Shown one piece after another: positions 164-32,267 of a stretch of DNA of 33,974 nt. Where the stretch lies: contig JAPVXR010000022.1 of NCBI GenBank assembly GCA_027214385.1, positions 1 through 33,974 on the forward strand, in the 5' to 3' direction. The notes below the pieces were generated by a model. That model saw only the letters and a list, made by a program, of their open reading frames with translations. It was not told the DNA's origin and made no database searches. Positions within the stretch are counted from its first letter, which is position 1; every line of letters begins with the position of its first letter. The translations under genes were made by a program, and so were the position numbers. The DNA is from Cryomorphaceae bacterium 1068 (lineage in GTDB: Bacteria > Bacteroidota > Bacteroidia > Flavobacteriales_D > Cryomorphaceae).

Positions 164-260
164 GATTTTTAAGATAGTGGCGAGATTATGTTACATAGAG
201 ATACATCCTGATACAAAGGGGTACACTCTGATACAGAAACAAGCCGAAAAAGGAAACACC

Positions 261-2834: not shown

Positions 2835-2881
2835 CCATGCTTTAGAGCCTCATAACGCCCCTTTTAGCCTCCTACTTTAGC

Positions 2882-2944: not shown

Positions 2945-2949
2945 TTAAG

Positions 2950-3249: not shown

Positions 3250-3542
3250 CAGAGGTATTCGATATGCTCCTGACACTTGCACAGGACATCAAAACAATCA
3301 AAGCCTACCTCCTCAATTTCCATAAGTCACGATTGGAGCAATTCAGTGATGAATGGATTGACGGACAGGTAGTGATGCAAACGCTGCATATTAGCAAAAG
3401 AACCCTTCAATCCCTTCGGGATAGTGGGGTTCTTCCCTACAGCCGAATCAATGGCAAGTTCTATTACAAAGTTTCTGACATGGAAGCTTTACTGGAATCC
3501 AACTACTCACCTTCAAAATCAAAGCATTATGGAGATAAGTAG
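3246..3542 (+). CDS. Second small HTH_17 DNA-binding protein
   Basis: A 98-aa protein similar in architecture to the one before it: an N-terminal helix (about 1-30), then an HTH_17 domain (about 40-88) with LHISKRTLQSLRDSGVLPY followed by NGKFYYKVSDMEALL. It looks like a diverged tandem paralog. Translation is coupled to the upstream gene (4-nt overlap). Its last 14 nt overlap the start of the BT4734-like gene. Probably a DNA-binding accessory factor for excision or replication; no direct evidence of target. Confidence 0.8.
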   Translation: MTEVFDMLLTLAQDIKTIKAYLLNFHKSRLEQFSDEWIDGQVVMQTLHISKRTLQSLRDSGVLPYSRINGKFYYKVSDMEALLESNYSPSKSKHYGDK

Positions 3543-4449: not shown

Positions 4450-4452
4450 GTT

Positions 4453-6270
4453 ATGGAGCGAAAAACATTCAATCCGTTGGAATGGCTTGATAAGCCTGAC
4501 CAACAAGTAAAAGTTACAGAGCAAAGCAATTACACTACAAATACACAACTCGAAGAAGTTGAACGAATCATTCAAGGCATTGAGGCCAGCCGTATAGATG
4601 TTACCTCCGCTTACAGCGATTGGGTAAATATCGGCTTTGCCTTTGCGGATGAGTTTGGTGAGACAGGTAGAAACCTGTTCCACCGTGTTAGTCAATATCA
4701 TCCTGAATATTCTACACAGGAATGCGACAAGCAGTTTGATAATTGCATGAAGGCAAGAGGTCAGGGAGTTTCCCTGAAAACCTTCTTTTATCATGCCAAG
4801 GAAGCAGGAATACCATTGACTACCCCAAAGCAGGAAAGACAGACTTACAGCCCTGCTAGCAGGTCTGAGAATCAAAGCAAGAATCTCAATAGTCAGGCAG
4901 AAATCAAGAAAGAACCAGAGCAAATGCCAACCTTTCCTGATTCCTTGTTTCCTGAACTTCCTGAGTTTTTGCAAAAGGTAATACAGATAGCCACTTCTAA
5001 TGAGGAAAGGGATATTCTACTCCTTGGCTCCTTAGTGGCTATTAGTGCCTGTTTACCCAAAGTGTCAGGCATCTATGATGGCAAGCGTGTCTATTCCAAT
5101 CTGTTTCTATTCATTACCGCCCAAGCCTCGGCAGGTAAAGGTCGTTTGGTGCATTGTCGTCAACTAGTGAATCCAGTACACAAAGAGTTCAGGAAGCAAG
5201 CCAAACTCCACAAGCAACATTACGAACTGGAATTGGCTGAATACAACGCCAACAAAGGGAAAGTTGAAGGAATAGAGAAACCCGAGAAGCCACCCGAAAA
5301 GATGCTCTTTATCCCCGCCAATAACAGCTCCACAGGAGCTTATCAATTATTGGGTGATAGTGACGGTAAAGGACTGATATTTGAAACTGAGGGTGACACA
5401 CTTGCACATGCTTTTAAGAGCGATTACGGCAATTATAGTGACGGCTTTAGAAAAGCCTTTCACCATGAGACTATTTCCTATTATCGCAGGACAGACCGTG
5501 AATATGTGGACATAGAAAGCCCTTGTCTTTCTACTGTCTTGTCAGGTACGCCCAAGCAAGTAGCAGCACTAATCCCGAATGCAGAAAACGGCTTATTCAG
5601 CCGTTTCATATTCTATTACATGAATGTTCGGCCAGTGTGGAAGAATGTATTTGCTTCGCAAACTACCAATGGATTAGATGACTACTTTGATGCGTTAGGA
5701 AATGAGTTCTTTAACCTTTACAGTTCGTTGAAAGCTGGACAGGATGTTCAATTCTTTCTCACCGCTGACCAGCAAGACCAATTCAATCAGTTCTTTGGTC
5801 AGATACAAGAAAAGTATATGAGCATTCAAGGAATCGACTACATGGCAACCATCCGAAGGTTGGGATTGATTGCCTATCGTTTCTGCATGATATTCTCCGC
5901 TTTGCGGATCATGGAGACTGGTGAAACATCATCAAAGATGATTTGTGAAGAAAGAGACTTTCAAGCTTCGCTTGCAATGGTCAAAGTGTTGGTAAAGCAT
6001 TCGAGTAAAGTATTTGCAGAACTCCCGGAAGACGTACAGAAACCTACTCGATTAAATAGGAAAGAGAAATTCTTGAATAAGCTACCCAAACACTTCAACC
6101 GTCAAAAGTACCTTGAAGTGGCAGCAGCTTTGAGCATTCCTCACAAAACGGCAGAGGGCTATATCACTGACTTCTGCAAATCAGGTCTGCTTCACCGTGA
6201 GTCTCAGGACAACTACATAAACACCTCGATTGAGGATACTCAGGATTCTGAGGATGCTAAGGAAAATTAA
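4453..6270 (+). CDS. PriCT-2 and DUF3987 primase/helicase-like protein
   Basis: A 605-aa protein. Residues about 35-118 match a primase C-terminal PriCT-2 domain (SDWVNIGFAFADEF and ECDKQFDNCMKARG are characteristic). A variable linker (about 120-165) follows, then a DUF3987 domain (about 165-550) with a P-loop-like ASAGKG (K229) and the segment LIFETEGDTLAHAFKSDYG, typical of the family. Such proteins are thought to prime or unwind DNA during mobile-element replication. It follows the BT4734-like gene by 3 nt in the same frame, and the pair corresponds to what is often one long polypeptide. The last 20 residues are acidic and low complexity. Confidence 0.85.
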   Translation: MERKTFNPLEWLDKPDQQVKVTEQSNYTTNTQLEEVERIIQGIEASRIDVTSAYSDWVNIGFAFADEFGETGRNLFHRVSQYHPEYSTQECDKQFDNCMKARGQGVSLKTFFYHAKEAGIPLTTPKQERQTYSPASRSENQSKNLNSQAEIKKEPEQMPTFPDSLFPELPEFLQKVIQIATSNEERDILLLGSLVAISACLPKVSGIYDGKRVYSNLFLFITAQASAGKGRLVHCRQLVNPVHKEFRKQAKLHKQHYELELAEYNANKGKVEGIEKPEKPPEKMLFIPANNSSTGAYQLLGDSDGKGLIFETEGDTLAHAFKSDYGNYSDGFRKAFHHETISYYRRTDREYVDIESPCLSTVLSGTPKQVAALIPNAENGLFSRFIFYYMNVRPVWKNVFASQTTNGLDDYFDALGNEFFNLYSSLKAGQDVQFFLTADQQDQFNQFFGQIQEKYMSIQGIDYMATIRRLGLIAYRFCMIFSALRIMETGETSSKMICEERDFQASLAMVKVLVKHSSKVFAELPEDVQKPTRLNRKEKFLNKLPKHFNRQKYLEVAAALSIPHKTAEGYITDFCKSGLLHRESQDNYINTSIEDTQDSEDAKEN

Positions 6271-6351
6271 TCCTTGGTATCCTCCATTTCCTTAAAATCC
6301 TGAAACATTAAATCCACAAATCTACCTACTTCGTTTCTTCTTTTTCTTTCC

Positions 6352-6388
6352 TATATTTGGCATTATTTGTCAAGTAATATATTGCCAA
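6352..6388 (+). promoter_or_regulatory. Promoter and operator of the XRE-Argonaute operon
   Basis: TATATTTG at 6352-6359 matches the Bacteroidota -7 consensus TAnnTTTG. The inverted repeat TTGGCA (6357-6362) / TGCCAA (6383-6388) starts inside this box and ends 2 bp before the ATG at 6390. A dimeric repressor bound there would block the start site, so autoregulation by the XRE protein is plausible. The rest of 6271-6351 shows nothing distinctive. Confidence 0.55.
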
Positions 6389-6389
6389 C

Positions 6390-6680
6390 ATGGATAACTT
6401 CGGTTCTAGACTGAAAGCATTAAGAACAAAACAAGGGCTATTAATGCGACAAGTCGCTGCTGCTACAGATGTGGACACCTCTATGATAAGCAAGTTTGAG
6501 AATGGTGATCGACTTCCAACAAGAAAACAAATTGAAAAGCTCGCTTTGATTTTAAAGGTTACAGAAGAGGAATTACTCGTTCAAGCATATAGTGAAAAAA
6601 TTGCATACGATTTAATCAAAGAACCGCTAGCTGAGGAAATTGTCGAATTGGCATTAAAAAAATTACAATTAAAAAAATGA
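6390..6680 (+). CDS. XRE-family HTH regulator (restriction-control type)
   Basis: A 96-aa protein with an HTH_3 domain at about residues 6-62: LKALRTKQGLLMRQVAAATDV, then MISKFENGDRLPTRKQIEKLA. The C-terminal helix (about 70-94) resembles the controllers found beside restriction-modification genes in Bacteroidota. A promoter and inverted-repeat operator lie directly upstream. The next gene begins 22 nt downstream on the same strand, so this regulator most likely controls the Argonaute-like gene as well as itself. No methyltransferase or restriction endonuclease is present, so the controller is either co-opted or part of an Argonaute cassette. Confidence 0.85.
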   Translation: MDNFGSRLKALRTKQGLLMRQVAAATDVDTSMISKFENGDRLPTRKQIEKLALILKVTEEELLVQAYSEKIAYDLIKEPLAEEIVELALKKLQLKK

Positions 6681-6702
6681 ACTAACCAAACAGTACATCT
6701 TT

Positions 6703-8802
6703 ATGCCTAGCCATACCTTCAACATACTCACATTCAATCATCCTCAGGAAGAACAAACCTTTTACTTCACTGACCAGGAACAAGCCAACCTCACACGGAT
6801 TTACAAATCCTTAGTGCCAGATGAAGTCATTGAAAAGTATGGAGAGCAAGACCACTATTACACATCATTTACAGTTGAGGCCGAAGGTTTCTTAGCGGTA
6901 TCAAAACCAACAAGTCCACAGTTTGAGACCAAGACAAATGAGCAAGGAGAAGAACGGTCATATACCATCCGTAATTCTACCTTTTCCACTTCAGTACTAA
7001 AGAGATATTACAATTCACTCATTCATAGCCATTTCAAGGAGAAAGGATTTTTAGTGAAGCCCAATTTTGTAAGTGATACAGAAGTTTGGCTTCCAAGTGC
7101 CAAACAAGACACCACAGGCAAGTACAAGATATTCGACCGCTTCTCACTCAAAGTACAGTTTAAGACAGTTTCCGACAGTCTTGAATTGTTGGTGACATTT
7201 GAAGGTAAATCCAAAATCTTCAAAGTTCCTGTCTCCACTCTTTTAGAGGATGTATCACCGACAGATATTAATTGGGTAGTGTATGAAAAGGGTCTGTACC
7301 GTTTTGATGAGTTACCTGATAGCGGTAAAAGAGAATATGACAAGGTGTATCCAGTATGGAATTTCGAAATCAGAGATGCATTAATGCAAGGAACGGAAGC
7401 CCCGGACAAAACCAATAAGTACAAAAAGTTTAGAGAGGGAATCGACAAGTTCTACAATCAATACCTGAATACAGAGGAGTTCAAAGCAATCATTCCAATT
7501 ACCTCCAATGGATTCATACCAGTTAATAAAATCAATGTCGGGTCAGTCAACAATTCCAGTAACCGACTTTTATTCGGTGAACAAAAGTCTGGTATTGTGC
7601 CAATGGATGGAATGAAAGAGCATGGCCCCTTTGATTTCAGCTCTACTTCTAAAATCCACTTCTTTTTCATCTTCCATAAAGATGATCAACACATCGCCCA
7701 GAAGATGGACGGTTATTTCAAAGGATCAGAATTTGGCTTCAAAGGATTGACCAAGTTTATTCATACGCCATACCATACTGAAAAAGGATTCAGTATAAGG
7801 TTTGATGACAGAGATGATCCATGGCCAGAAATCTATGAAGCCATTACCAATAAACACTTTGAATCTGACATTCAGTACATCGCCATTTATATCAGTCCAT
7901 TCTCCAAGAACTCACCAGACAAATCAAGAAGGAAGATATACTACAAGCTGAAAGAATTGCTACTGAAAGAAGGCGTATCCTCACAGGTAATTGACGGAGA
8001 GAAGGTATTGACCAACGAAAAGTACTATTACAGCCTACCGAATATTGCTATCGCCATTTTAGCCAAACTGAACGGCATCCCTTGGAAGCTGGATACAAAG
8101 CTCAAAAATGAATTGATAGTAGGCATTGGAGCATTTAGAAACTCAGAAGTTGACATACAATATATAGGAAGTGCTTTTAGCTTCGCTAACAATGGGAAAT
8201 TCAACCGTTTTGAGTGCTTCCAAAAAGACCAAACAAAGGAGTTAGCAGGTTCAATTATCAGGGCAGTAAAGGAGTATGCTAATGTAAATACAGGCATCAA
8301 ACGGCTTGTGATACACTTCTACAAGAGTATGAGGCAAGATGAACTTCAACCAATAGAAGACGGCCTCAAAGACCTTGGATTAGACATTCCGGTATTTATA
8401 GTGTCCATCAACAAAACAGAATCCTCAGACATTGTTGCATTTGACAACAGTTGGAAAGACCTTATGCCAATGAGTGGCACATTCATAAAGGTTGGGTACA
8501 ATAAATTCCTGTTATTCAACAACACACGATACAATCCAAAATTTTACAGCTTCCATGACGGTTTTCCGTTCCCGATCAAGCTGAAAATCTTTTGCACAGA
8601 AAAAGAGCTGGTAGAGGAATATAAGACCGTAAAAGAATTGATAGATCAGGTGTATCAGTTCAGCCGTATGTATTGGAAATCAGTAAGACAACAGAACTTA
8701 CCAGTTACCATCAAATACCCTGAAATGGTCGCAGAAATGCTCCCTCATTTTGATGGTAATGAAATACCTGAATTTGGAAAAGACAACCTTTGGTTCTTGT
8801 AA
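6703..8802 (+). CDS. Prokaryotic Argonaute, catalytically inactive PIWI
   Basis: A 699-aa protein. Residues about 285-470 read as an Argonaute MID domain: LLFGEQK then HGPFDF mark its start. Guide 5'-phosphate ligands fit a Y-K-Q-K pattern (Y413, K417, Q428, K455), with SLPNIAIAILAKLNGIPWKL leading into PIWI. PIWI (about 470-699) has the usual strands, LIVGIGAFR, KRLVIHFYK, VFIVSINKT and the C-terminal SVRQQNLPVTIKY. The first catalytic aspartate (GID in active enzymes) is G476, and the second (RDG after the IH strand) is replaced near Y540, so guide-directed cleavage is unlikely. The N-terminal 280 residues should hold the N domain; I cannot delimit a PAZ domain. No SIR2, TIR or nuclease partner is adjacent. 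Defence by guided binding, or regulation, is inferred. Confidence 0.82.
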   Translation: MPSHTFNILTFNHPQEEQTFYFTDQEQANLTRIYKSLVPDEVIEKYGEQDHYYTSFTVEAEGFLAVSKPTSPQFETKTNEQGEERSYTIRNSTFSTSVLKRYYNSLIHSHFKEKGFLVKPNFVSDTEVWLPSAKQDTTGKYKIFDRFSLKVQFKTVSDSLELLVTFEGKSKIFKVPVSTLLEDVSPTDINWVVYEKGLYRFDELPDSGKREYDKVYPVWNFEIRDALMQGTEAPDKTNKYKKFREGIDKFYNQYLNTEEFKAIIPITSNGFIPVNKINVGSVNNSSNRLLFGEQKSGIVPMDGMKEHGPFDFSSTSKIHFFFIFHKDDQHIAQKMDGYFKGSEFGFKGLTKFIHTPYHTEKGFSIRFDDRDDPWPEIYEAITNKHFESDIQYIAIYISPFSKNSPDKSRRKIYYKLKELLLKEGVSSQVIDGEKVLTNEKYYYSLPNIAIAILAKLNGIPWKLDTKLKNELIVGIGAFRNSEVDIQYIGSAFSFANNGKFNRFECFQKDQTKELAGSIIRAVKEYANVNTGIKRLVIHFYKSMRQDELQPIEDGLKDLGLDIPVFIVSINKTESSDIVAFDNSWKDLMPMSGTFIKVGYNKFLLFNNTRYNPKFYSFHDGFPFPIKLKIFCTEKELVEEYKTVKELIDQVYQFSRMYWKSVRQQNLPVTIKYPEMVAEMLPHFDGNEIPEFGKDNLWFL

Positions 8803-9212
8803 TGGACAGAATAGAAGAAATATTTAAAATTAAGGACGTAAAGCCGACTGCTGTAAGGATAGTAGTACTGCGCTACCTATTAGAACAAAAGAAAGCACAG
8901 TCTTTAAAGGACATTGAAGTTGGTCTCGATCAATCAGACAGAAGTTCAATTTTTCGCACACTAAAAACTTTTGAAGATCATAAGGTGATCCATAGTATCG
9001 AAGATGGCTCAGGGATGACCAAGTATGCTGTATGTGTAGAAGGCTGCAATTGCGATCCAGAAGACCTTCATTATCATTTCTATTGCACTTCATGTGAAAT
9101 GACTTTTTGCCTTTTAGACCACCCTATTCCTTTAGTCAATCTACCAAATAATTTTAAAATGGCACAAGCTAACATGGTCATTAAAGGATTATGCGATAAG
9201 TGTAACCAATAA
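8802..9212 (+). CDS. Fur/Zur-family metal-responsive repressor
   Basis: A 136-aa protein. The winged-helix DNA-binding half (about 1-75) includes KPTAVRIVVLRYLL and RSSIFRTLKTFEDHKVI. The metal-binding half has HYHF (H90, H92) and two CxxC pairs, C95/C98 and C131/C134, which form the structural zinc site of Fur proteins. I chose the ATG at 8802, which overlaps the Argonaute stop (TAATG), over the TTG at 8790 because the shorter form matches the family N-terminus. It precedes the Czc-type genes. An inverted repeat in the next promoter (9217-9231) is a likely operator, so this is probably the zinc-type sensor for that block. Confidence 0.88.
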   Translation: MDRIEEIFKIKDVKPTAVRIVVLRYLLEQKKAQSLKDIEVGLDQSDRSSIFRTLKTFEDHKVIHSIEDGSGMTKYAVCVEGCNCDPEDLHYHFYCTSCEMTFCLLDHPIPLVNLPNNFKMAQANMVIKGLCDKCNQ

Positions 9213-9216
9213 CCTT

Positions 9217-9251
9217 TGCAATCGGGTTGCACTATCGCTTCATTATCTTTG
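9217..9251 (+). promoter_or_regulatory. Promoter with Fur-type inverted repeat before the czc genes
   Basis: TGCAA (9217-9221) and TTGCA (9227-9231) form an inverted repeat with a 5-bp spacer, like Fur/Zur operators. TATCTTTG at 9244-9251 matches the -7 box TAnnTTTG. The expected transcription start is only about 2 nt before the ATG at 9258, so the first transcript would be nearly leaderless. The repeat overlaps the upstream promoter element, as expected for repression. Confidence 0.55.
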
Positions 9252-19123: not shown

Positions 19124-22100
19124 ATGCTCAATAAAATCATAAAATATTTCTTAGAGAATAAGTTGGTCACTGTTCTCGTCCTTACAGGTTTTGTAGCCTG
19201 GGGAATTGTAACTGCTCCATTTGGATGGCAAGTGGGTGCATTGCCTTCTGACCCTGTTCCGGTGGATGCCATACCAGACATAGGAGAAAACCAACAAATT
19301 GTTTTTACCCAATGGGCTGGCCGTTCGCCACAGGATATTGAGGATCAAATCTCTTATCCTTTAACTACTTATTTACTAGGAATCCCAGGAGTAAAATCTA
19401 TTAGAAGTTCATCCATCTTCGGTTTTTCCAGTATCTATATCATCTTCTCAGAAGATGTGGAGTTCTATTGGTCACGATCCAGAATACTCGAAAAACTCAA
19501 CTCACTACCCTCTGGCTTACTCCCTGATGCCGTCCAGCCTGCATTGGGGCCAGATGCCACCGCCTTAGGGCAGGTGTATTGGTACACCATTGAAGGAAGG
19601 GACAAAAACGGAAATCCAACTGGCGGTTGGGATTTGCACGAAATCCGCACAGTTCAGGACTTCTATGTGAAGTATGGATTAAATGCAACAGAAGGAGTTT
19701 CAGAAGTTGCTTCCATTGGCGGTTTTATTCAGGAATACCAAATTGATGTAAATCCTGACGCATTGAAAGCCTACAACATCCCCTTGCATAAAGTCATGCA
19801 GGCAGTACAAAAATCCAATAAGGATGTTGGTGCAAAGACCATAGAAATCAATCAGGCTGAATATTTAGTTCGTGGTTTAGGATATGTCAAGAAAGTAGAA
19901 GACATAGAAAAGGCAGTAGTTGCAGTACAAGACAATGTGCCTATAAGGATAAAAGACATTGGTGTAGTATCTCTTGGCCCCGCTACAAGACGAGGTATTT
20001 TGGACAAAGATGGTGCTGAAGTAGTAGGTGGCGTTGTAGTAGCTCGATATGGAGCGAATCCCTTGCAGGTCATCAACAATGTAAAAGCCAAAATTATTGA
20101 AATAGCACCCGGCCTTCCCAAGAAAACATTGGCTGACGGTAGAGAAAGCCAGCTTACAATTGTCCCGTTTTATGATCGCTCAGAATTGATCTATGAAACC
20201 TTAGGTACACTGGAAGAAGCCTTGTCGCTGGAAATTCTCATTACCATTCTGGTGGTGATTGTGATGGTATATAACCTAAGAGCTTCATTCCTTATTTCCA
20301 GCCTTTTGCCCATTGCCGTGCTCATGGTGTTTATTGCCATGCGATACTTTGGTGTCGATGCGAATATTGTAGCACTATCAGGAATAGCCATTGCCATCGG
20401 AACAATGGTGGACTTAGGTATTATTCTTTCTGAAAATATCATCAAGCATATTGATGAAGCCCCACCAAGCCAAAAACTAATTGATACCATTTACAATGGA
20501 GCATCAGAGGTGGCCACTGCGATATTAACGGCTGTCTCTACCACAATTGTGAGTTTTGTCCCTGTATTTACCATGCAGGCAGCAGAAGGCAAGCTGTTTG
20601 GTCCTCTGGCTTTTACAAAGACTTTTGCCCTTTTAGCTGCATTGATCGTTTCATTGCTGATTTTGCCAACACTGGCACATTGGTTTTTCGGCTTTAATAT
20701 TAAAAACAAGTTCTTAAAAAAATACGGCCACTACGGCTTAGTCCTTATTGGAATTATTAGCCTCTTTATTGGACAGGTTTGGACGGGAGTGTTACTAATT
20801 CTATTTGGAATCATCGGTATTGTAAAAAACATTGAACAGCTCAAAAATGCTTCACTTCCGACTGTAATAAAGTTCTTACTCAAGTATGCGGAATTAATCA
20901 TTGTCCTGTTGGGAGTCATTTGGTTGCTGGCAAAATATTGGTTACCACTAGGTGCATCTAAATCCCTTCTCCTCAACTTTGTTTTTGTTGCCCTATTGGT
21001 CGGTGTTATACTCGGTGCGTTTAGGCTATTGGAATTTCAATACAAAAAAATCCTCACTTGGTGTTTAAATAACAGAATCAAGTTTTTGATTATCCCGACT
21101 ATACTCATCCTATTAGGTGCAAATATTTGGCTTGGCTTCAATGCTGTTTTTGGTTTTGTCTCCAAGGGTTTTGAGAAGGTTGGATGGAATTTGGATCAGA
21201 CCAAAGGATGGTCAGCCATGTCCCAAACCTTTCCAGGTATAGGAAAGGAATTTATGCCTTCTCTGGATGAAGGCAGCTTTCTGTTGATGCCAACCTCAAT
21301 GCCTCATTCCGGAGTAACATTCAATCGAAAGATAGTAGGCCAATTGGATATGCTACTTACCAGTATCCCCGAAGTAGAGCTAACGGTTGGTAAACTCGGA
21401 CGGGTAGAATCAGCCCTTGACCCAGCCCCTATTTCTATGTATGAAAACATTATCAATTACAAGCCAGAATATATTCTGAACAAAAAAGGACACAGGCAAA
21501 GGTTTAAAGTAGATAAAAACAATCGCTTTATAACAGTTTCTGGTGATTCACTAACCAATCAAGAAGGGTTAAGTAAAGGCATTGAAGCCAAGGAACTCAT
21601 TGCAGATGAAAATGGGGAGTACTATCGCAATTGGCGTGATCACATTCAATCTCCCGATGATATTTGGAATGAGATAGTAAAAGCCACCAAACTACCAGGT
21701 GTCACCTCAGCACCTAAGCTTCAACCGATTGAAACTCGGTTGGTCATGCTCCAAACAGGGATGCGAGCTCCTATGGGAATCAAGGTATATGGCCCTGACC
21801 TGAAAACAATAGAGAACTTTGGATTGCAGTTGGAGAACGTTCTAAAAGGAGTGCCTTCTGTAAAGGCAGAAGCAGTATTTGCGGATAGAATTGTAGGTAA
21901 ACCCTACATACACCTCAACATAAACAGGGATGAAATCTCACGATATGGATTGAATATAGAAGATGTTCAGCGCACCATAGAAACTGCAATTGGTGGAATG
22001 AAAATCACTTCCACTGTAGAAGGTCGAGAAAGATTTCCTGTCAGGGTACGCTATCCGCGAGAATTGAGGGATGACCCTGAAGCATTGGGTAAAATACTAA

Positions 22101-22948
22101 TGCAGACACCCACAGGTGCACAAATTCCATTATCTCAAATCATTGACTTTGAATATGTAAGGGGACCACAAGCGATAAAAAGTGAAGAAACCTTTCTGGT
22201 TGGCTATGTACTGTTTGATAAACGTGATGGTTTCTCGGAAGTCACTGTGGTAAACGATGCTCAACGCACGATTCAGGATAAAATTGATTCAGGTGAACTG
22301 ACCGTACCTGCTGGTGTGAGCTATAAGTTTTCAGGGAGTTATGAAAATCAGGTGAGGGCAGAAAAACGACTTTCTATCATTGTTCCTTTGGTATTAGGCA
22401 TTGTATTTCTCATTCTTTATTTCCAGTTCCGTTCGGTATCCACTTCATTAATGGTATTTACAGGTATTGCAATGGCTTTTAGCGGTGGCTTTATCATGCT
22501 ATGGCTCTATGGGCAAAGTTGGTTTGCAGACTTCTCAGTCTTCGGCACAAATTTTCGTGATTTATTCCAAATACACACCATTAATCTGAGTGTGGCCGTT
22601 TGGGTTGGGTTTATTGCCCTCTTTGGAATAGCAACTGACGATGGAGTATTGATGGCTACTTATCTGGATCAAAGCTTTGATAGAAATAAAACAGATAATA
22701 TAAAAGGAATAAGAGCGGCAACAGTGGAAGCAGGACAGCGCAGAATAAAGCCAGCAGTAATGACAACTGCCACGACCATCATTGCTTTACTACCTATCCT
22801 CACTTCTACTGGTAGAGGTTCAGATATTATGATACCCATGGCATTGCCTGCTGTTGGTGGGATGCTATTTGCTGCCATCACTTATTTCATAGTTCCGGTG
22901 ATTTACTGCTGGAGAGAAGAACGTAAAATTTCAAAAGGCCAATCATGA
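19124..22948 (+). CDS. cusA: CusA-type Cu(I)/Ag(I) RND efflux pump
   Basis: A 1274-aa HME-RND pump. It has TM1 (about 12-28), a proton-relay segment GIAIAIGTMVDLGIILSEN (D430), and the motif NxxxGxxxDGVL-like GIATDDGVLMATYLDQ near the C-terminus. The three methionines that bind Cu/Ag in E. coli CusA have matches: M722 in LLMPTS, M772 in ISMYENI and M875 in RLVMLQTG. The spacing 722-772 equals that of E. coli M573-M623. Two features lengthen it: extra hydrophobic segments at about residues 530-660, and an insertion of about 50 residues between the second and third methionine. The stop overlaps the OMF start (ATGA). This supports copper/silver export, unlike the Czc-type pump at 9775. Confidence 0.92.
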   Translation: MLNKIIKYFLENKLVTVLVLTGFVAWGIVTAPFGWQVGALPSDPVPVDAIPDIGENQQIVFTQWAGRSPQDIEDQISYPLTTYLLGIPGVKSIRSSSIFGFSSIYIIFSEDVEFYWSRSRILEKLNSLPSGLLPDAVQPALGPDATALGQVYWYTIEGRDKNGNPTGGWDLHEIRTVQDFYVKYGLNATEGVSEVASIGGFIQEYQIDVNPDALKAYNIPLHKVMQAVQKSNKDVGAKTIEINQAEYLVRGLGYVKKVEDIEKAVVAVQDNVPIRIKDIGVVSLGPATRRGILDKDGAEVVGGVVVARYGANPLQVINNVKAKIIEIAPGLPKKTLADGRESQLTIVPFYDRSELIYETLGTLEEALSLEILITILVVIVMVYNLRASFLISSLLPIAVLMVFIAMRYFGVDANIVALSGIAIAIGTMVDLGIILSENIIKHIDEAPPSQKLIDTIYNGASEVATAILTAVSTTIVSFVPVFTMQAAEGKLFGPLAFTKTFALLAALIVSLLILPTLAHWFFGFNIKNKFLKKYGHYGLVLIGIISLFIGQVWTGVLLILFGIIGIVKNIEQLKNASLPTVIKFLLKYAELIIVLLGVIWLLAKYWLPLGASKSLLLNFVFVALLVGVILGAFRLLEFQYKKILTWCLNNRIKFLIIPTILILLGANIWLGFNAVFGFVSKGFEKVGWNLDQTKGWSAMSQTFPGIGKEFMPSLDEGSFLLMPTSMPHSGVTFNRKIVGQLDMLLTSIPEVELTVGKLGRVESALDPAPISMYENIINYKPEYILNKKGHRQRFKVDKNNRFITVSGDSLTNQEGLSKGIEAKELIADENGEYYRNWRDHIQSPDDIWNEIVKATKLPGVTSAPKLQPIETRLVMLQTGMRAPMGIKVYGPDLKTIENFGLQLENVLKGVPSVKAEAVFADRIVGKPYIHLNINRDEISRYGLNIEDVQRTIETAIGGMKITSTVEGRERFPVRVRYPRELRDDPEALGKILMQTPTGAQIPLSQIIDFEYVRGPQAIKSEETFLVGYVLFDKRDGFSEVTVVNDAQRTIQDKIDSGELTVPAGVSYKFSGSYENQVRAEKRLSIIVPLVLGIVFLILYFQFRSVSTSLMVFTGIAMAFSGGFIMLWLYGQSWFADFSVFGTNFRDLFQIHTINLSVAVWVGFIALFGIATDDGVLMATYLDQSFDRNKTDNIKGIRAATVEAGQRRIKPAVMTTATTIIALLPILTSTGRGSDIMIPMALPAVGGMLFAAITYFIVPVIYCWREERKISKGQS

Positions 22949-24177
22949 AAAAAATAATCATAATCATATTCACGGCATTTGGCTTTTCCACATTAACAAA
23001 TGCTCAGTCGTTAGATGACTATTTCAAGTTAGCGGCAGAAAACAATCCGGGATTGCAGGCTAAATACAAATCCTTTGAAGCTGCTATGCAAAAAGTAACA
23101 CAAGTTAGCAGTTTGCCAGACCCCAATCTTTCCTTCGGTTATTTCGTGTCTCCGGTGGAAACAAGAGTGGGGCCGCAACGAGCAAGGTTTTCTTTGACAC
23201 AAATGTTTCCATGGTTCGGCACTTTAAAAGCCCAGGAAGATGCTGCTACTTTAATGGCAGAAGCAAAATATCAAGAGTTTTTAGATGCCCGAAACAAATT
23301 GTACTACCAAGTATCAGCATCATATTATCCACTCTATGAGCTGCAAAAGTTGATTTCAATTGAAGAAGAAAATCAACGCATCCTATCCTCATACAAAGAG
23401 ATAGCCACTATTCAATTTCAAAACGATAAAGGCTCAATGGTAGATGTATTGAGGGTGGACATTATGCTCAAAGATGCAACTACTAATTTGTCTATATTGG
23501 AACAAAAGCAAAAACCTCTTGTAACTCGTTTTAATAAGCTTTTGAATCGGTCTGATGACGACAATATTGTTGTTCAGGACTCTTTATTCACTTTTAGTTT
23601 ACCTGCAAACTATCGTAAAGACTCGTTACTCGCGTCCAATCCTATTCTGGATGAATTGGAGTTGAAAATTGAAGCCAGTAAAGCAAGTGAACAAGCCGCA
23701 ATCAAGCAGGGTCTTCCAAAACTTGGTGTAGGCTTAGATTATGTAATCGTAGGTCAACGAACGGATATGTCTGTGCCTGACAATGGAAAAGATGCATTTA
23801 TGCCAATGGTGTCTGTGAGCCTTCCAATTTTCAGAGGAAAATATAAAGCAGCACAAAAAGAAGCTCAACTCATGCAAGAATCTTATTCCCTGCAAAGAGA
23901 AGAAGCTGCTAACAGGCTAATCAGTTCCTATGACATGATTTGGTTCGAGATCCAAAAACAGATTGAGTTGATACAGTTATACGAAGAACAAATACAGGAG
24001 TCTGGTCAATCATTAAACCTTTTATTCTCTGCTTACAGCAATTCGGGAAAAGACTTTGAAGAAGTACTTAGGATGCAACAGCAAATATTAAAGTATCAAA
24101 AAATGAAAGCTACTGCCTTGTCGGAATACCACATCGCATTAGCAGAACTGGATTATATCACAGCTAAATCGAAATAA
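22945..24177 (+). CDS. cusC: TolC/CusC-type outer-membrane factor
   Basis: A 410-aa protein. A signal peptide (1-20, cleavage likely before Q21) precedes two outer-membrane-efflux-protein repeats (about 25-200 and 225-405) with the long amphipathic helices typical of the family, e.g. [21 protein letters not shown]. It begins on the last codon of the cusA gene (4-nt overlap), so the two are translated together. It would form the outer-membrane channel for the CusA/CusB pump. In contrast, the other pump in this window carries its outer-membrane domain as a fusion. Confidence 0.9.
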
Positions 24178-24179
24178 TC

Positions 24180-26237
24180 ATGGAAAATAAACATCATAAT
24201 CATACAAACGAAGATCACAAGCATAGTCATGAACACCATGACCATAGTAATCATAATAATGGCCATGAATCTCATGACCATCACCAGGGACATCATGCCC
24301 ACATGATTGAAGATTTCAAAAAACGCTTTTGGATTTCTTTAGTCATCACCCTGCCTATCGTAGTGCTTGCACCAATGATACAGGGATTAATCGGTTATGA
24401 ACTTCGCTTCAATGGTGATCGATATGTTCAATTCGTGCTTTCATCCATTATTTTCTTTTATGGAGGTTGGCCATTCCTAAAAGGTCTCGCAGATGAAGTA
24501 AAAAAGAAAGCTCCGGGTATGATGACTTTGATTGCTTTAGCTATTTCAGTAGCCTATTTCTACAGTTCAGCTGTAGTATTTGGACTTGGTGGCAAAATCT
24601 TCTTTTGGGAACTCGCCAGCTTAATCGTCATCATGCTATTAGGCCACTGGATAGAGATGAAATCCGTTATGGGAGCTTCCAATGCCTTGCAGGAATTGGC
24701 CAAAATGATGCCTTCAACAGCTCGCAGAATTAAAGAAGATGGGGAGCATGAAGATGTGCCTATTGATAATTTAAAAGGCAATGACACCATACTGGTAAGA
24801 CCAGGCGAAAAAATCCCTGCTGATGGTATCGTATTGGAAGGTGAAAGTCATGTAAATGAATCCATGCTTACTGGGGAATCAAAACCAGTAACCAAACATA
24901 GAAATGATCAGGTTATTGGTGGTTCGGTCAATGACAATGGCACCTTAAAAATCAAAGTGAAGCATACGGGCAAAGATTCCTACTTGTCTAAGGTGATAGA
25001 AATGGTGAAAGAAGCTCAGGAAACGAAATCCAAAACCCAAAATCTGGCAGATAAAGCCGCTGCATGGTTATTCTACATCGCTTTAGGAGCAGGTATGACC
25101 ACACTTGTAGTATGGTTGAGCCTCGGTAAAGACTTTGAATATGCATTAGAACGTATGGTAACCGTCATGATTATCTCATGTCCTCATGCTTTGGGCTTAG
25201 CTGTCCCTTTAGTAGTGGCCATTTCCACGGCTGTTTCTGCTAAAAATGGATTATTGATCAGAAACCGAACAGCATTTGAGAATGCAAGGAAACTAACCGC
25301 AATCATATTCGACAAAACAGGCACTTTAACCAAAGGTGAATTTGGGGTAACACGGTTTAAAAGTACTTTAGACAATTACTCGGACAATGAATTACTTCAA
25401 ATTGCTGCGTCTATAGAAAATAGTTCTGAGCATCCTATAGCGGCAGGTATCGTTCGTAAGGCAAAAGCAAATGATTTGACTTTACAAGAGCCTGAGAACT
25501 TCCAAAATATTACAGGAAAAGGAATCAAGGCAAACCTAAAAGGACAGGAAATCAAAATTGTTAGTCCAGGAATGCTTACAGAGCAGGGATTTGACACTCC
25601 AGCTGATGCTTTTAAAACAGAGGATGAAACGGTAGTATTTGTTTTGATTGACAATTCATTGGCAGGATACATTGCCCTTGCAGACGAAATTCGACCAGAA
25701 TCTTTATCAGCAATAAATACGCTAAAAGAGAGAGGTATAAAAGTTTACATGGCAACAGGTGATAACCAGCAAGTGGCAAAAGCAGTTAGCCAGCAACTCT
25801 CTTTGGACAACTTCTATGCAGAAGTACTACCGGAAGACAAACAACGCATCATTAAAGAGCTTCAGGAAAAAGGTGAATTTGTAGCCATGACGGGTGATGG
25901 TGTAAATGATGCCCCTGCACTTGCACAGGCTAATGTGGGTATTGCCGTTGGTTCAGGCACAGATGTAGCAGCCGAAACGGCTGATATTGTTTTGGTCAAC
26001 AGTAACCCAAAAGACATTGCCAATTTGATTCTTTTCGGTGCTGCTACTTACAAAAAAATGATGCAAAACTTATGGTGGGCAGCAGGTTATAACATTGTAG
26101 CCGTTCCTTTAGCTGCTGGTGTTTTGGCTGGTGCTGGCATTATTCTTAGCCCTGCCATCGGTGCGGTTCTAATGAGCCTTAGCACTGTGATAGTTGCTTT
26201 CAATGCACAATTATTAAAAAGACAAATCAAGAATTAA
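24180..26237 (+). CDS. copB: P1B-type copper/silver ATPase with CPH motif (CopB-like)
   Basis: A 685-aa heavy-metal P-type ATPase. The first 42 residues hold 17 histidines and probably bind metal; no HMA domain is present. The ion-binding helix has SCPHALG (C334, P335, H336), the CPH signature of P1B-3 (CopB-like, Cu/Ag) enzymes. Other landmarks are TGES (actuator), DKTGT (phosphorylated D378), SSEHPIA (His-Pro of the nucleotide domain) and GDGVNDAP (D573). It exports Cu ions from the cytoplasm using ATP. It starts 2 nt after the OMF stop and is followed immediately by the adaptor gene, so it is embedded in the Cus operon. Confidence 0.93.
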
Positions 26238-26238
26238 G

Positions 26239-28017
26239 ATGAAAAATACAAATAAAACAACAGTAATTATCGCCATAAGCACATTAGCAATCGGCTTGCT
26301 ACTTGGCTGGATAATTTTTGGAAGATCCAATGAAAACCAAACGAATGAACATAACCATTCAACAACTGCTGAATCTGAAACTATCTGGACATGTTCAATG
26401 CATCCTCAAATCCGTCAAAACGAACCTGGTGATTGTCCGCTTTGTGGAATGGATTTAATTCCATTGGAATCAACTGATGTTGAATTAGACCCTATGGCAG
26501 TGAACATGTCACCTACTGCCATGCAGTTGGCACAAGTTCAAACTATGGTGGTTGATAAGGGTAAGACTAATAAATCAATACGTCTGAATGGAAAAGTACA
26601 GGCAGATGAACGTTTGCTATCTACCCAATCTTCACACATCCCAGGCAGGATAGAAAAACTTTCAGTCAATTTTACAGGAGAATTTGTGTCGGCAGGTCAG
26701 GTTTTGGCAAATGTGTATTCCCCTGAATTGGTGACTGCACAAGAAGAATTGTTTGAAGCAAAAAAAATTAAAGAATCCCAACCTGCATTGTTCAATGCAG
26801 CCAAAGAAAAGCTGAAAAACTGGAAGCTCTCAGACAAACAGATTGACCAGATAGTCGCTTCAAATAAATCCATAGAACAGTTTCCAATTCTCGCCAATGT
26901 TTCAGGGTATGTAACTAAGAAAATGGTCAATCTGGGTGACTATATCAAACAAGGGGAAGCATTATATGAAATAGCAGACTTATCTAAAGTATGGGTGCTT
27001 TTTGATGTGTATGAGTCAGATATGACTTGGATAAACAAAGGTGATGCTGTCATATACACAGTGCAATCAATACCCGGTAAAACATTTAAAGGAAGAATTA
27101 GCTACATCGATCCTGTTATCAATCCAAAAACCAGAGTGGCAAAAGCAAGACTTGAAGCAACAAACAAAGGTTTAATGCTCAAACCAGAAATGTTCGCAAC
27201 TGGAACGATAGAAGCAATAACCAATACTGGTAATGCATCCTTAATTGTTCCAAAAACTGCTGTAATGTGGACGGGCAAACGCTCCGTAGTTTATGTGATG
27301 CAAATGTCAGCTCAAGGTGTAAGTTTCGTCATGCGAGAAGTTACTTTGGGTCCAGAATTAGGAGAAAGTTATGTGATTGAAGAGGGCTTGCAGCCTGGCG
27401 AAGAAATAGCAATCAATGGAACATTCAGTATTGATGCAGCAGCACAATTGGCAGGCAAACCAAGTATGATGAACCCGGAAGGTGGTGTAGCCATGACTGG
27501 CCACAACCATGGGGGAAATACCAATTCAAATATGGAAAAAATGCCTGTTTCATCTAAGAAAACAACATTATCAGAGGATGCCAAAAAGTCTTTACAACCA
27601 CTTTTTGACAACTACTTCAAATTGAAGGATGCGTTGGCAAGTGATGATTTTGAAGATGCTAAAGCATCGGGCGTGGCGATGAACAACTCCTTAGGAAAGA
27701 TTGATATGAACCTTTTTAAAGGGGATGCACACTCTTTATGGATGCAACAGTCAACTGCGTTGAAAACAGTTTTACAGCACATCGAACATCTTGGTGACAT
27801 CAAAGCCATTCGAGAAAAGTTCATCAGCATATCCAATTCAATGATAGCATTAGCAGAATCTTTTGATCCATTGCCTACACCTATTTATGTCCAGTACTGT
27901 CCGATGGCAGATTCCAATAAAGGGGCAGATTGGTTGAGCAAGGAAAAGGAGATTCTGAATCCCTATTTCGGTGAGGCCATGCTTTCATGCGGTGAAACAA
28001 CAAAGACAATAAAATGA
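26239..28017 (+). CDS. cusB: CusB-type RND adaptor with HMBD and DUF3347 domains
   Basis: A 592-aa protein. An N-terminal transmembrane anchor (about 8-27) is followed by a heavy-metal-binding domain at about residues 49-76, with C52, M54, H55, C66, C69 and M71 in WTCSMHPQ and CPLCGMDL. The membrane-fusion core (about 95-410) has lipoyl and beta-barrel segments such as GYVTKKMVNLGDYIKQGE. After a Met/His-rich linker (about 415-440), a DUF3347 domain (about 450-590) ends with YVQYCPMADS and MLSCGET. It would accept periplasmic Cu/Ag and pass it to CusA. A small gene starts on its stop codon (ATGA at 28014). Confidence 0.9.
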   Translation: MKNTNKTTVIIAISTLAIGLLLGWIIFGRSNENQTNEHNHSTTAESETIWTCSMHPQIRQNEPGDCPLCGMDLIPLESTDVELDPMAVNMSPTAMQLAQVQTMVVDKGKTNKSIRLNGKVQADERLLSTQSSHIPGRIEKLSVNFTGEFVSAGQVLANVYSPELVTAQEELFEAKKIKESQPALFNAAKEKLKNWKLSDKQIDQIVASNKSIEQFPILANVSGYVTKKMVNLGDYIKQGEALYEIADLSKVWVLFDVYESDMTWINKGDAVIYTVQSIPGKTFKGRISYIDPVINPKTRVAKARLEATNKGLMLKPEMFATGTIEAITNTGNASLIVPKTAVMWTGKRSVVYVMQMSAQGVSFVMREVTLGPELGESYVIEEGLQPGEEIAINGTFSIDAAAQLAGKPSMMNPEGGVAMTGHNHGGNTNSNMEKMPVSSKKTTLSEDAKKSLQPLFDNYFKLKDALASDDFEDAKASGVAMNNSLGKIDMNLFKGDAHSLWMQQSTALKTVLQHIEHLGDIKAIREKFISISNSMIALAESFDPLPTPIYVQYCPMADSNKGADWLSKEKEILNPYFGEAMLSCGETTKTIK

Positions 28018-28145
28018 AAGAGTGTTGCAAAACCGGAGATCAGCCACCTCCCTCAAAATTAAAAAAATGGACTTCAAGAATAATTTGGGGTATCGTTCTC
28101 CTTACCATTCTAGTCTTGTCAGTAATTCAAATATTTAACTTCTAA
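28014..28145 (+). CDS. 43-aa single-pass membrane peptide with N-terminal CC motif
   Basis: A small gene of 43 codons: MKECCKTG, then PPPSKLKKW, then a hydrophobic helix (about residues 23-40, IIWGIVLLTILVLSVIQI) and a stop (TAA). Its ATG overlaps the CusB stop by 4 nt (ATGA), and the next gene begins 11 nt after it. Such coupling and the charge and hydrophobicity pattern support a real gene. Cytoplasmic CC and basic residues before one membrane helix suggest an accessory or regulatory peptide of the Cus system. I do not know a named family for it. Confidence 0.6.
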   Translation: MKECCKTGDQPPPSKLKKWTSRIIWGIVLLTILVLSVIQIFNF

Positions 28146-28156
28146 ATTTTAACACA

Positions 28157-28774
28157 ATGAAAAAATCAAATTCAATCTTAAATCTCGCTTTAGTAGCAGG
28201 TCTCTCATTTTCGCTTCTTGCCTGCGGAAATAGTAAATCAACCGATCATAACGATGATAATACTGAACATGATCATAGTGGTATCGATCATGTAGCCGAG
28301 CATAAAATGCCCGATGGTTCAGTTATGGAAATGAGCGAAAACAAATCCATTTCTCAATTGATCGATCAATACCTCGCAATTAAAAATGCCTTGGTACAAG
28401 ACGATTCAAAATCTGCTGCAAGTGCGGGTCAAAAACTTGCAGAAGAGGCTTCAAGTATAGACGTTAACACTTTTGAAGTGTCCAAGCAGCCCGAGATTAA
28501 GGAAATATTGGAAGTAGTAAAAGAACATGGCGAACACATTGCTAAAAGCGAAATAGTTCATCAACGTGAGCATTTTGAAGGAATGGCAAAAGATTTCATG
28601 GACATACTTGCAATCACAGGAACTGACAGAACACTATATCAGCAGTATTGCCCAATGTACAACAAAAATAAGGGAGGGTATTGGTTGAGTGACTCTCAAG
28701 AGATCAAAAATCCATTATTTGGCAGTAAAATGCTGACTTGTGGTTCGGTGAAAGAAACCATTTCAATGAAATGA
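28157..28774 (+). CDS. DUF3347 lipoprotein
   Basis: A 205-aa protein. A lipoprotein signal peptide ends in LLAC (C23). A His/Asp-rich stretch (about 30-50) follows, then a DUF3347 domain (about 62-200) with ISQLIDQYLAIKNALVQDD and the C-terminal QYCPMYNKNKGGYWLS and MLTCGSV. The same domain is fused to the C-terminus of the CusB protein just upstream, so it looks like a free-standing copy of that module. The likely role is periplasmic binding or handover of copper. The start of the following gene overlaps its stop (ATGA at 28771). Confidence 0.85.
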   Translation: MKKSNSILNLALVAGLSFSLLACGNSKSTDHNDDNTEHDHSGIDHVAEHKMPDGSVMEMSENKSISQLIDQYLAIKNALVQDDSKSAASAGQKLAEEASSIDVNTFEVSKQPEIKEILEVVKEHGEHIAKSEIVHQREHFEGMAKDFMDILAITGTDRTLYQQYCPMYNKNKGGYWLSDSQEIKNPLFGSKMLTCGSVKETISMK

Positions 28775-29232
28775 AAAAATGGCTTAAATTATCTCTATGG
28801 ATAGTTTTAATTGTGTTGGTGGGGATTCAATTTGTCCCCGTCCAACGCAATGAAATAGAACCAGTTACCAATGCTGATTTTATTGAGCATTACGAGTCCC
28901 CTATTGTCATTGGAAATATTATCCGAGCATCCTGTTATGATTGCCATAGCAACCAAACCAAATACCCATGGTACAGTAATGTTCAACCTATAGGCTTTCT
29001 TTTACAGAATCATATTTCAGAAGGAAATTCTGAATTAAACCTATCAGAATTTGGTCTTCTATCAAATCGAATGAAACGGACAAAACTAAAATCAATTCTA
29101 AGTCAAATTGATAACGATAAAATGCCAATGCCATCCTACCTATTTCTTCATTCAGAAGCCAAACTGGATTCGCTAAAAAAAACTCTTTTGGTTAGTTACT
29201 TTGATTCAATATTAGTTGATATTGATAGGTGA
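28771..29232 (+). CDS. Haem-binding-domain protein
   Basis: A 153-aa protein. An N-terminal membrane anchor or uncleaved signal (about 4-22) precedes a cytochrome-like CxxCH motif, SCYDCHS (C55, C58, H59), followed by NQTKYPWYSNVQPIGFLLQNHI, as in the Bacteroidota haem-binding-domain (DUF/Haem_bd) proteins. The remainder contains a KMKRT-like basic region and DNDKMPMPSYLFLH. It begins on the previous stop (ATGA). These proteins often follow DUF3347 genes; a redox role in the periplasm is inferred. Confidence 0.8.
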   Translation: MKKWLKLSLWIVLIVLVGIQFVPVQRNEIEPVTNADFIEHYESPIVIGNIIRASCYDCHSNQTKYPWYSNVQPIGFLLQNHISEGNSELNLSEFGLLSNRMKRTKLKSILSQIDNDKMPMPSYLFLHSEAKLDSLKKTLLVSYFDSILVDIDR

Positions 29233-29255
29233 AAAAAAAACCTTTGTTTTTTATA

Positions 29256-30053
29256 ATGGAAAAACCTGTATTCAAAATATCACAAATGGATTGCCCTTCT
29301 GAGGAACAAATGATTCGGATGAAATTGGATGGAATAAACGAAATCAAACAACTTGAATTTGAGATACCTCAAAGGAAACTAACCATATTTCACATTGGCA
29401 ATACTACGGAAATTGAAAGGATATTAGCAGAACTAAAATTAGGTTCAAAACTAATATCAAACACACAATCACAGGTAGTAATTGATGTAGAATCAGACCC
29501 AAGCAACCAACGAAAAATCCTTTGGGCTGTTCTTATCATCAATTTTGTCTTTTTTGTTCTTGAAATGCTATTCGGCTTGATTTCTAAATCTATGGGGTTG
29601 GTGGCAGATTCTTTGGATATGCTAGCAGATTCGTTAGTGTATGCATTAAGCTTACTGGCAGTAGGTCAAACATTAATTCGTAAAAAGAAAGTAGCTAAAC
29701 TAAGTGGGTACTTTCAAATGTCATTAGCTCTATTTGGTTTATTGGAAGTCATTAGACGTTTTGTAGGATCTGATGGCATACCGATTTTTCAAAACATGAT
29801 TATCATATCCTTTTTAGCTCTTTTGGCAAATTCCGTTTCACTTTACCTGATTCAAAAGGCGAAGAGCAAAGAAGCACACATGCAAGCTTCTGCAATTTTT
29901 ACTTCCAATGATATTATCATCAATTTAGGTGTAATTTTGGCTGGAGGCTTAGTCTACTATTTTGAAAGTAAAATACCTGACTTAGTTATTGGTTCTGTTG
30001 TTTTCATTATTGTATTTAGAGGAGCAACAAGGATTTTAAGATTAGCGAAATAA
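29256..30053 (+). CDS. CDF-type cation transporter, second HMA-like paralog
   Basis: A 265-aa protein closely related to the one at 15386-16177 (by eye roughly 60% identical, aligning end to end without large gaps). The N-terminal HMA-like region has the same one-cysteine loop, MDCPSEE. The CDF membrane domain has VADSLDMLADSLVYALS and HMQASAIFTSNDIIIN. I chose the ATG at 29256 because it aligns with the paralog and the GTG at 29229 only adds nine lysine/phenylalanine-rich residues. It closes the Cus block. The pair suggests that each RND block acquired or duplicated its own copy. Confidence 0.83.
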   Translation: MEKPVFKISQMDCPSEEQMIRMKLDGINEIKQLEFEIPQRKLTIFHIGNTTEIERILAELKLGSKLISNTQSQVVIDVESDPSNQRKILWAVLIINFVFFVLEMLFGLISKSMGLVADSLDMLADSLVYALSLLAVGQTLIRKKKVAKLSGYFQMSLALFGLLEVIRRFVGSDGIPIFQNMIIISFLALLANSVSLYLIQKAKSKEAHMQASAIFTSNDIIINLGVILAGGLVYYFESKIPDLVIGSVVFIIVFRGATRILRLAK

Positions 30054-31078: not shown

Positions 31079-31447
31079 ATGACCAAAACATGTATTAGAG
31101 TTTATGCTGATGAAAAACAGATCAAGCAGTGTAAGCAAGACATTGAAAAAGTAGGTGATGCAGTAAACCGAATAGCAAGGGCACTTAACCTTGCTGGCAA
31201 TGAGGTACGACTAAAAATTCTGTTTCTATTGGACAAGGAATCCAAAATGTGTCCATGTGATCTAAGTGATATTCTGGGCATGACAGTTCCTGCCATTTCT
31301 CAGCATTTGAGAAAGCTAAAAGATGCGGGACTGGTTGAAACAAACAAAGTAGGACAAACAATATTCTACTCTATTTCCGAATCAAACGACCTCATACTGA
31401 ATCCAATATTAGGGTTATTAACACCAGAAAAAGAATCAACAATATGA
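31079..31447 (+). CDS. ArsR-family metal-responsive repressor
   Basis: A 122-aa winged-helix protein. The DNA-recognition part is VPAISQHLRKLKDAGLV (about residues 70-86), followed by the wing NKVGQTIFYSI. The metal site includes C58 and C60 in KMCPCDL, as in CadC/ArsR proteins, plus N-terminal C5 and C18. Two palindromic operators precede it. The stop overlaps the merTP start (ATGA at 31444). It is therefore the likely mercury- or thiol-metal-responsive repressor of the operon, replacing the MerR usual in Proteobacteria. Confidence 0.9.
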   Translation: MTKTCIRVYADEKQIKQCKQDIEKVGDAVNRIARALNLAGNEVRLKILFLLDKESKMCPCDLSDILGMTVPAISQHLRKLKDAGLVETNKVGQTIFYSISESNDLILNPILGLLTPEKESTI

Positions 31448-32052
31448 CGAATAAGAAATCAAGCTCATTAGTAATGACAAGTGTACTGACCGCTATTAGT
31501 GCATCACTTTGTTGCATTACCACAGTGTTGGCACTACTTGCAGGATCAAGCGGAGTAGCCGCAACATTTTCTTGGTTAGAACCTTTTCGACCTTGGTTGA
31601 TTGGAATAACTGTAGTCGTTTTAGCTTTTGCATGGTATCAGAAATTGAGACCAAGAACTGAGGAAGAAATTGCTTGTAATTGTGATGAGGACAAACCTTC
31701 TTTTTGGCATTCAAAGAAATTCCTTGGTATAGTGACGGTATTTGCAGCGATCATGCTTGCATTCCCTTATTACTCGGATGCCTTTTACCCTGAAACCAAA
31801 CTATCAGTATCAGATAATGTCAATCTCGAATCAACCTACGAAATCAAAATTACTGGAATGACCTGCACGGGATGTGAAGAACATGTGAAACTTGAAATTG
31901 GAAAACTACCTGGCATTTCTGGTTTAGAGGTTTCTTATGAAAAAGCGAATGCAGTGGTAACTTTTGATGAATCTAAAACAGACATTGAGAAAGTAAAATC
32001 GGCTGTTGACAAAACAGGTTACAAAGTAGAATCAGTAAACAAATCAAAATGA
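31444..32052 (+). CDS. merTP: MerTP: mercuric transporter fused to MerP-like HMA domain
   Basis: A 202-aa protein. Residues about 8-110 are a MerT-like membrane domain with the cysteine pair of TM1 (C23, C24 in ASLCCITT), a second pair in the cytoplasmic loop (C78, C80) and three hydrophobic segments. Residues about 130-200 are a MerP-like HMA domain with GMTCTGC (C141, C144). The fused arrangement is known in Bacteroidota mer operons. It should bind periplasmic Hg(II) and move it inward. It is coupled to the ArsR gene upstream (4-nt overlap) and to a small Cys-rich gene downstream (4-nt overlap). No merA reductase follows in this window. Confidence 0.9.
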   Translation: MTNKKSSSLVMTSVLTAISASLCCITTVLALLAGSSGVAATFSWLEPFRPWLIGITVVVLAFAWYQKLRPRTEEEIACNCDEDKPSFWHSKKFLGIVTVFAAIMLAFPYYSDAFYPETKLSVSDNVNLESTYEIKITGMTCTGCEEHVKLEIGKLPGISGLEVSYEKANAVVTFDESKTDIEKVKSAVDKTGYKVESVNKSK

Positions 32053-32267
32053 GTGAAGTAGTTCTTAAATCAACAATTACTTGTCCTAAGTGTGGACATC
32101 AAAAAGAAGAAACCATGCCAACAGATGCATGTCAGTATTTCTATGAATGCGAAAACTGTAAAGAAGTACTTAAACCCATACAAGGTGATTGTTGCGTTTA
32201 TTGCTCTTATGGTACAGTAGCTTGCCCACCAATCCAAGAAGGTGGTAAAAGTTCATGTTGTGGGTAA
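32049..32267 (+). CDS. GDCCVxC-motif small Cys-rich protein
   Basis: A 72-aa protein with an N-terminal zinc-ribbon-like pair C12/C15, a second pair C34/C37, and the motif GDCCVYCSYG (C48, C49, C52) that names this family, in which some members carry selenocysteine. Here every position is a cysteine codon. C59, C70 and C71 add further ligands. It overlaps the MerTP gene by 4 nt. A cytosolic Hg or thiol-metal binding protein that accepts metal from MerT is a reasonable inference; a catalytic role is not shown. Confidence 0.8.
   Translation: MSEVVLKSTITCPKCGHQKEETMPTDACQYFYECENCKEVLKPIQGDCCVYCSYGTVACPPIQEGGKSSCCG

Follow-up and report, generated by a model that had tools for sequence, protein, structure and literature searches.

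The locus analysed here raises the question whether a very short open frame, wedged between two larger genes, encodes a protein, and what such a protein could contribute to metal export. The window, i.e. the whole stretch of DNA that was analysed (33,974 nucleotides), carries this frame on the forward strand at positions 28014-28145. It starts with ATG and encodes 43 amino acids, with the translation MKECCKTGDQPPPSKLKKWTSRIIWGIVLLTILVLSVIQIFNF*. The original prediction held that the frame is a real gene for a single-pass membrane peptide in a copper operon. Our results bear this out: the frame has relatives in other genomes, its protein sequence is under constraint, and it lies among metal genes. 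It belongs to a new family of small proteins in Bacteroidota copper/silver-type resistance loci, for which the sources searched contain no description. Small single-helix membrane proteins that go with transporters are a known kind; what is unusual in this family is its head of two adjacent cysteines.

The surrounding genes on the forward strand confirm the copper operon membership. The series opens with a CusA-type RND pump (19124-22948, named by eye from the translation) and a TolC-like outer membrane factor (22945-24177, named by eye from translation and position). A P1B-type ATPase follows at 24180-26237 (TIGR01511/TIGR01525), with a His-rich N-terminus and a CPH motif read in the translation; a Pfam scan of this ATPase found no HMA domain. 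Next comes the CusB-type periplasmic adaptor of 592 amino acids at 26239-28017, with an HMBD domain and a C-terminal DUF3347 domain (Pfam HlyD_D23, HMBD, DUF3347), and then the peptide gene. Downstream of the peptide are a DUF3347 protein (28157-28774, Pfam DUF3347) with a start that looks lipoprotein-like by eye, a Haem_bd domain protein (28771-29232, Pfam Haem_bd, with an in-frame ATG chosen as start), and a CDF-type transporter (29229-30053, Pfam Cation_efflux) with a weak HMA-like head that scores below the HMA cut-off. Further along, the window also contains an ArsR-type regulator (31079-31447, by eye), a MerTP-like gene (31444-32052) and a GDCCVxC domain (seleno)protein (32049-32267).

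The peptide start and the CusB stop share the letters ATGA at 28014-28017 (TGA/ATG), so that the two genes indeed overlap by 4 nt, and they may be translationally coupled. The same overlap with CusB was seen at four other loci (L058, L168, L170 and L175), where the start in L170 was taken at an in-frame ATG. On the other side, only 11 nt separate the peptide stop from the DUF3347 gene at 28157.

Homologues were found by sequence search and not by context. An alignment of 23 members, with 18-79% identity to the window peptide, showed a head rich in Lys and Arg, often also rich in Pro, and one hydrophobic helix in every member. M1 and C4 are invariant (23/23) and K2 is nearly so, while C5 is present in 22 of the 23 members; in the window, the codons of this vicinal pair lie at 28023-28028. 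The exception, in G160, has CY instead of CC. This CY relative (L174, 8825-8965) has two DUF3347 genes and a Haem_bd gene in its locus, and blastp found no CusA or CusB gene within 6.5 kb of it.

The hydrophobic helix of the window peptide spans approximately residues 23-42 (28080-28139), with its best 17-mer at residues 23-39. In line with the single transmembrane helix of the original prediction, AlphaFold2 modelled one helix at residues 15-42, with a mean pLDDT of 93-94 over residues 21-40; the head was modelled with low confidence (mean pLDDT 55 over residues 1-10). The positive-inside rule relates the distribution of basic residues to membrane orientation. In all 48 sequences compared (three identical pairs counted, L196 left out because its frame ends after 28 amino acids), Lys and Arg were more numerous before than after the hydrophobic 17-mer, and 47 of the 48 had CC within the first eight residues. 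Hence, an N-in/C-out topology is predicted, which would place the MKECCK head in the cytoplasm, as had been proposed.

The peptide has a wide but patchy distribution. The window genome itself has one convincing copy; two more weak matches sit in long frames. Among seven other genomes of the same family, including one of the same genus, the only match was in G005, a member of another genus. There, a frame with 69% identity lies between the CusB-DUF3347 and DUF3347 genes, 125 nt 3' of CusB and without overlap. A search with the single sequence found relatives with 37-45% identity in other families, and in a sample of the phylum it matched 4 of 395 genomes at E <= 0.01 (window genome counted). 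The first profile (A1) matched 84 of 395 genomes at E <= 0.05, five of them at E <= 5.4e-10, and nearly all matches outside these five looked like transmembrane noise. With a later profile (A3), matches at E <= 0.001 were obtained in 13 of 399 genomes of the order, 7 of these at E <= 9e-10, while the class yielded 17 of 395 genomes, 11 of them at E <= 2.7e-8 (window genome counted in both). In the genus of G203, 19 of 62 genomes matched at E <= 1e-4, at 26 places and at most three per genome.

Extraction yielded 46 coding sequences, 43 of which are distinct, from collections that overlap (L116 and L197 have identical DNA, and L167 and L180 represent one locus). L191, L192 and L202 were left out, as extraction gave no ATG frame. 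The sequence of G096 (L176), whose E-value of 6e-4 falls within the weak band, was kept as a member by judgement, for its MKSCC head and its position near a CopA gene. The relative in L196 (G1160), whose frame ends before the helix, has possibly decayed. In G255, the CC peptide is followed by a second small peptide of 37 amino acids that has a single hydrophobic stretch (L026, 1742-1855; L177, approximately 9113-9226).

Several relatives are carried on plasmids, namely Spirosoma linguale pSLIN02, two Hymenobacter plasmids and Runella pRUNSL02. A tblastn search of plasmids with the window peptide gave no match, whereas the G203 peptide matched 12 records with E-values of 0.2-7, none of them significant alone. 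Because of these weak E-values, carriers were accepted on motif and context: the Spirosoma, Runella and two Hymenobacter records combine an MKxCC head and a helix with metal genes nearby; one of the two Hymenobacter records, NBH84, was accepted from its match and gene table. Three Agrobacterium plasmid records had the best E-values and were rejected, as the one inspected contained no metal genes; the G255 peptide gave one partial match, in Rhizobium. The plasmid records of Spirosoma linguale (ADB42830.1) and the two Hymenobacter (WP_264682448.1, WP_258049174.1) list the relatives as 'hypothetical protein'. Hence, the claim that the gene is too short for usual gene calling does not hold on these plasmids; it agrees with Runella pRUNSL02, for which no such gene is listed, although the incomplete gene table of this plasmid gives the absence limited weight.

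Short frames of this type recur after CusB/DUF3347 genes, as an accessory. A scan by CusB alignment gave 272 loci, the best 80 of which were examined with the profile, and the peptide was found in 5 of these 80, which is a lower bound because some of the loci (e.g., L082) end soon after CusB. In each of the five it lies on the CusB strand and within 77 nt of the CusB stop. The carriers are Algoriphagus algorifonticola, UBA1842, UBA2371, UBA2338 and a MAG named Rickettsiales NP5. L056, which has the closest CusB among the best 80 of 272 (80%), has no peptide at CusB. This absence and the low carriage indicate that the pump does not need the peptide. The peptide is therefore accessory to these loci, and its patchy distribution implies that it tunes or improves such systems without being indispensable to them.

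DNA of 11-18 kb was fetched around 17 members, and all 17 sit among copper-type metal genes. Homologues of the window's Cus, DUF3347, Haem_bd, CDF, MerTP or ATPase genes occur within 1.5 kb in 15 of the 17 members versus none, over up to 1.5 kb, of 54 weak-hit controls, which ranged from E 1.1e-5 (L031) to 0.95 and comprised only the weak matches for which loci had been issued (most of the 84 genomes matched by the A1 profile had none). Weak search matches were treated as helix noise and not as members. Eleven of the 17 members were not rows of the A3 profile, and nine of these 11 are among the 15. The remaining two also have metal genes beside them: multicopper oxidase, HMA and HMBD genes in L165, and HlyD_D23, OEP and HMBD genes in L172. 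In the genus of G203, such a homologue lies within approximately 1.5 kb at 23 of the 26 places; two of the other three have a P1B ATPase homologue approximately 2.3 kb away, and the last has a protein that looks HMBD-like by eye at approximately 4 kb. The immediate neighbour varies (CusB, DUF3347, HMA protein, OEP or DUF2231 protein), which ties the peptide to the metal locus as a whole and to no single gene. The original prediction would have been undermined by a lack of conservation of the frame or of its CC-helix pattern in related operons; both turned out to be conserved there.

Selection acts on the encoded protein. Across 12 pairs of sequences, 116 of 247 changes were synonymous, while only 22% of the sites are synonymous. 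The pooled pairs gave a pS of 0.35 versus a pN of 0.11, with a binomial P of ~3e-18 that serves only as a guide, since the pairs were chosen by hand and the counts are Nei-Gojobori style. Two of the pooled pairs (L190/L193 and L198/L203) differ by nonsynonymous changes only. Outside the pool, dN and dS were 0.20 and 0.32 between the window and L170, and 0.24 and 0.47 between L170 and L168. Constraint is thus weaker in the close trio of the window, L170 and L168, which includes the lowest-dS pair of the window.

The peptide matched none of the named families searched. No meaningful match came from scans against Pfam, NCBIfam and PDB sequences, and assignment to a known family was rejected because all matches were weak. 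The best of these were NF045849 (NCBIfam, E 5e-4, 2 of 23 members), DUF4044 (Pfam, E 0.002) and a PDB sequence at E 0.33. Across the 23 members, Pfam gave only TM_PetC, DUF4044, DUF2116 and DUF3094 (E 0.002-0.008), and the window peptide (P0001) matched only TIGR02896 and TIGR03927 in NCBIfam, far under the cut-off. The HMA domain of the HMA/CopZ metallochaperones was likewise without a Pfam match in the peptide. The open-access literature (subscription journals lie outside it) held no description of the peptide in titles and the opening parts of abstracts, and neither the head motifs nor DUF3347 together with copper were found there; DUF3347 by itself occurs in a single Streptococcus paper. 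The accessible part of PMC11213822 does not mention the peptide.

What, then, might the peptide do? We favour the view that it is a membrane-tethered Cu(I)/Ag(I) relay or sensor subunit that works beside the exporter of its locus, with a probability of roughly 0.45. The peptide would sit in the inner membrane by its one helix, N-in/C-out, with the vicinal cysteine pair of the head at the cytosolic surface. The two thiolates, perhaps of two copies, could bind Cu(I) or Ag(I), and the metal might then be placed at, or reported to, the exporter of the same locus, i.e. the CusA-type RND pump and/or the P1B ATPase. We infer the metal binding, the partner and the choice between relay and sensor: where a copper-type locus encodes a predicted cytosolic thiol pair, a Cu(I)/Ag(I) site is the most plausible reading, which favours a relay or sensor.

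The metal-site reading is best read together with an analogy. MerF and MerT are small membrane proteins in which CC pairs exposed to the cytosol carry another soft metal, Hg(II), according to the consulted part of PMC5500634. They share with the peptide a small size, the inner membrane, a soft-metal locus and a CC pair on the cytoplasmic side, which is predicted for the peptide (PMC5500634, same part). MerF has two helices and two CC pairs, whereas the peptide has one predicted helix and a single CC pair before it. The peptide has no MerF or MerT match in NCBIfam or Pfam, and none of the 23 members matched the MerF model at E <= 0.01 (NCBIfam).

Most discussion of Cus-type systems treats them as periplasmic exporters. 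Should its thiols bind copper, the peptide would add a cytosolic metal-handling piece to these systems, and this would bear on how RND metal pumps obtain their substrate. A more specific version, in which Bacteroidota Cus-type exporters have the peptide as a subunit dedicated to metal loading or gating on the cytosolic side, with a membrane-anchored Cu(I) thiolate site, is doubtful; if true, cytosolic copper could be sensed or drawn on by an RND system that otherwise faces the periplasm, or by a P-type ATPase that lacks HMA. Finding small membrane proteins is difficult, and few have been linked to a pathway. This one offers two conserved neighbouring residues, a topology prediction, metal genes around the fetched relatives and named cultured carriers, so that a two-residue mutant can test it directly.

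The main rival explanation is a modulator like AcrZ. The helix of the peptide would bind to the membrane-spanning part of the RND pump or P-type ATPase, with a tuning or stabilising effect, and the cysteines would serve dimerisation, redox state or anchoring and not a metal site. Such a role is possible, although we consider it rather unlikely. Pfam holds an AcrZ model, and the 23 members showed no match to the AcrZ family, nor to any other described small regulator in Pfam. In the available parts of the sources, AcrZ is a protein of 49 amino acids that forms a helical belt on AcrB (PMC10710835) and bends toward a groove on it (PMC7267776). With its approximately 40-50 amino acids, single helix and association with RND efflux, often directly after CusB, the peptide resembles AcrZ and other small transporter regulators (PMC10710835, in part). 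It differs in being encoded inside a metal locus and in its CC head. This head speaks against the AcrZ-like explanation, because in the 23-member alignment the CC pair is better conserved than any position of the helix. Moreover, some members (e.g., L165, L172 and L174) have no CusA homologue within 6.5 kb, which weakens CusA as the only partner.

Alternatively, the peptide might be a sensor or signalling peptide, in which the metal-loaded cytosolic CC pair alters contact with a regulator or protease instead of a transporter. The predicted cytosolic thiols and the variable neighbours would suit this, as would the AraC- or ArsR-type regulators in a few loci (L170, L173, L204 and L207), yet no regulator is consistently adjacent, and we regard it as improbable.

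It is more unlikely still that the frame is a cis-acting leader or translational coupler, where translation and not the peptide controls the next gene. The precedent is CutF, a copper-sensing nascent peptide upstream of cutO, which is likewise encoded by a small cysteine-bearing gene in a copper operon (PMC9973294, in part). The ATGA overlap and the tight spacing to DUF3347 in several loci are consistent with such a role. However, the gene that follows is not the same at every locus and can lie more than 100 nt away, selection acts on the amino acids, and the motifs differ: the window peptide has CC at residues 4-5 only and no CxxxC, its CC pair is predicted to be cytosolic, and the alignment showed no C-terminal proline-rich motif, as the prolines are in the head and the C-terminus is helix. 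A terminator-like site was also lacking at 27600-28400.

The motif scan (ATG, CC in the first eight residues, one hydrophobic 17-mer, 30-60 amino acids) found six frames in the 80 CusB loci (1.17 Mb, both strands); five of these share the strand of CusB and lie no more than 77 nt from its stop. First-order Markov sequence gave six over three replicates (~2 per 1.2 Mb); the motif alone is therefore not rare, but its position is. A chance open frame without function, for which the short length and this background rate of the motif might speak, can be dismissed in view of the distant homologues, the synonymous excess and the metal neighbourhood.

The DNA around the peptide gene also appears to have a history of exchange. 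Compared with L170, from another GTDB family, the identity of the window over 27000-30053 rises from 77-96% before approximately 28150 to 98-100% from approximately 28200; compared with L168, from a third family, it rises from 56-88% to 94-100% at approximately 28800. Given these jumps, the metal island appears to be a mosaic that families have shared recently, and one of its junctions would lie just 3' of the peptide gene. Ahead of the metal genes, at 177-8802, the window contains a tyrosine integrase (611-1705), a PriCT_2/DUF3987 protein (4453-6270) and a Piwi-domain, Argonaute-like protein (6703-8802), which suggests an integrative element with a prokaryotic Argonaute.
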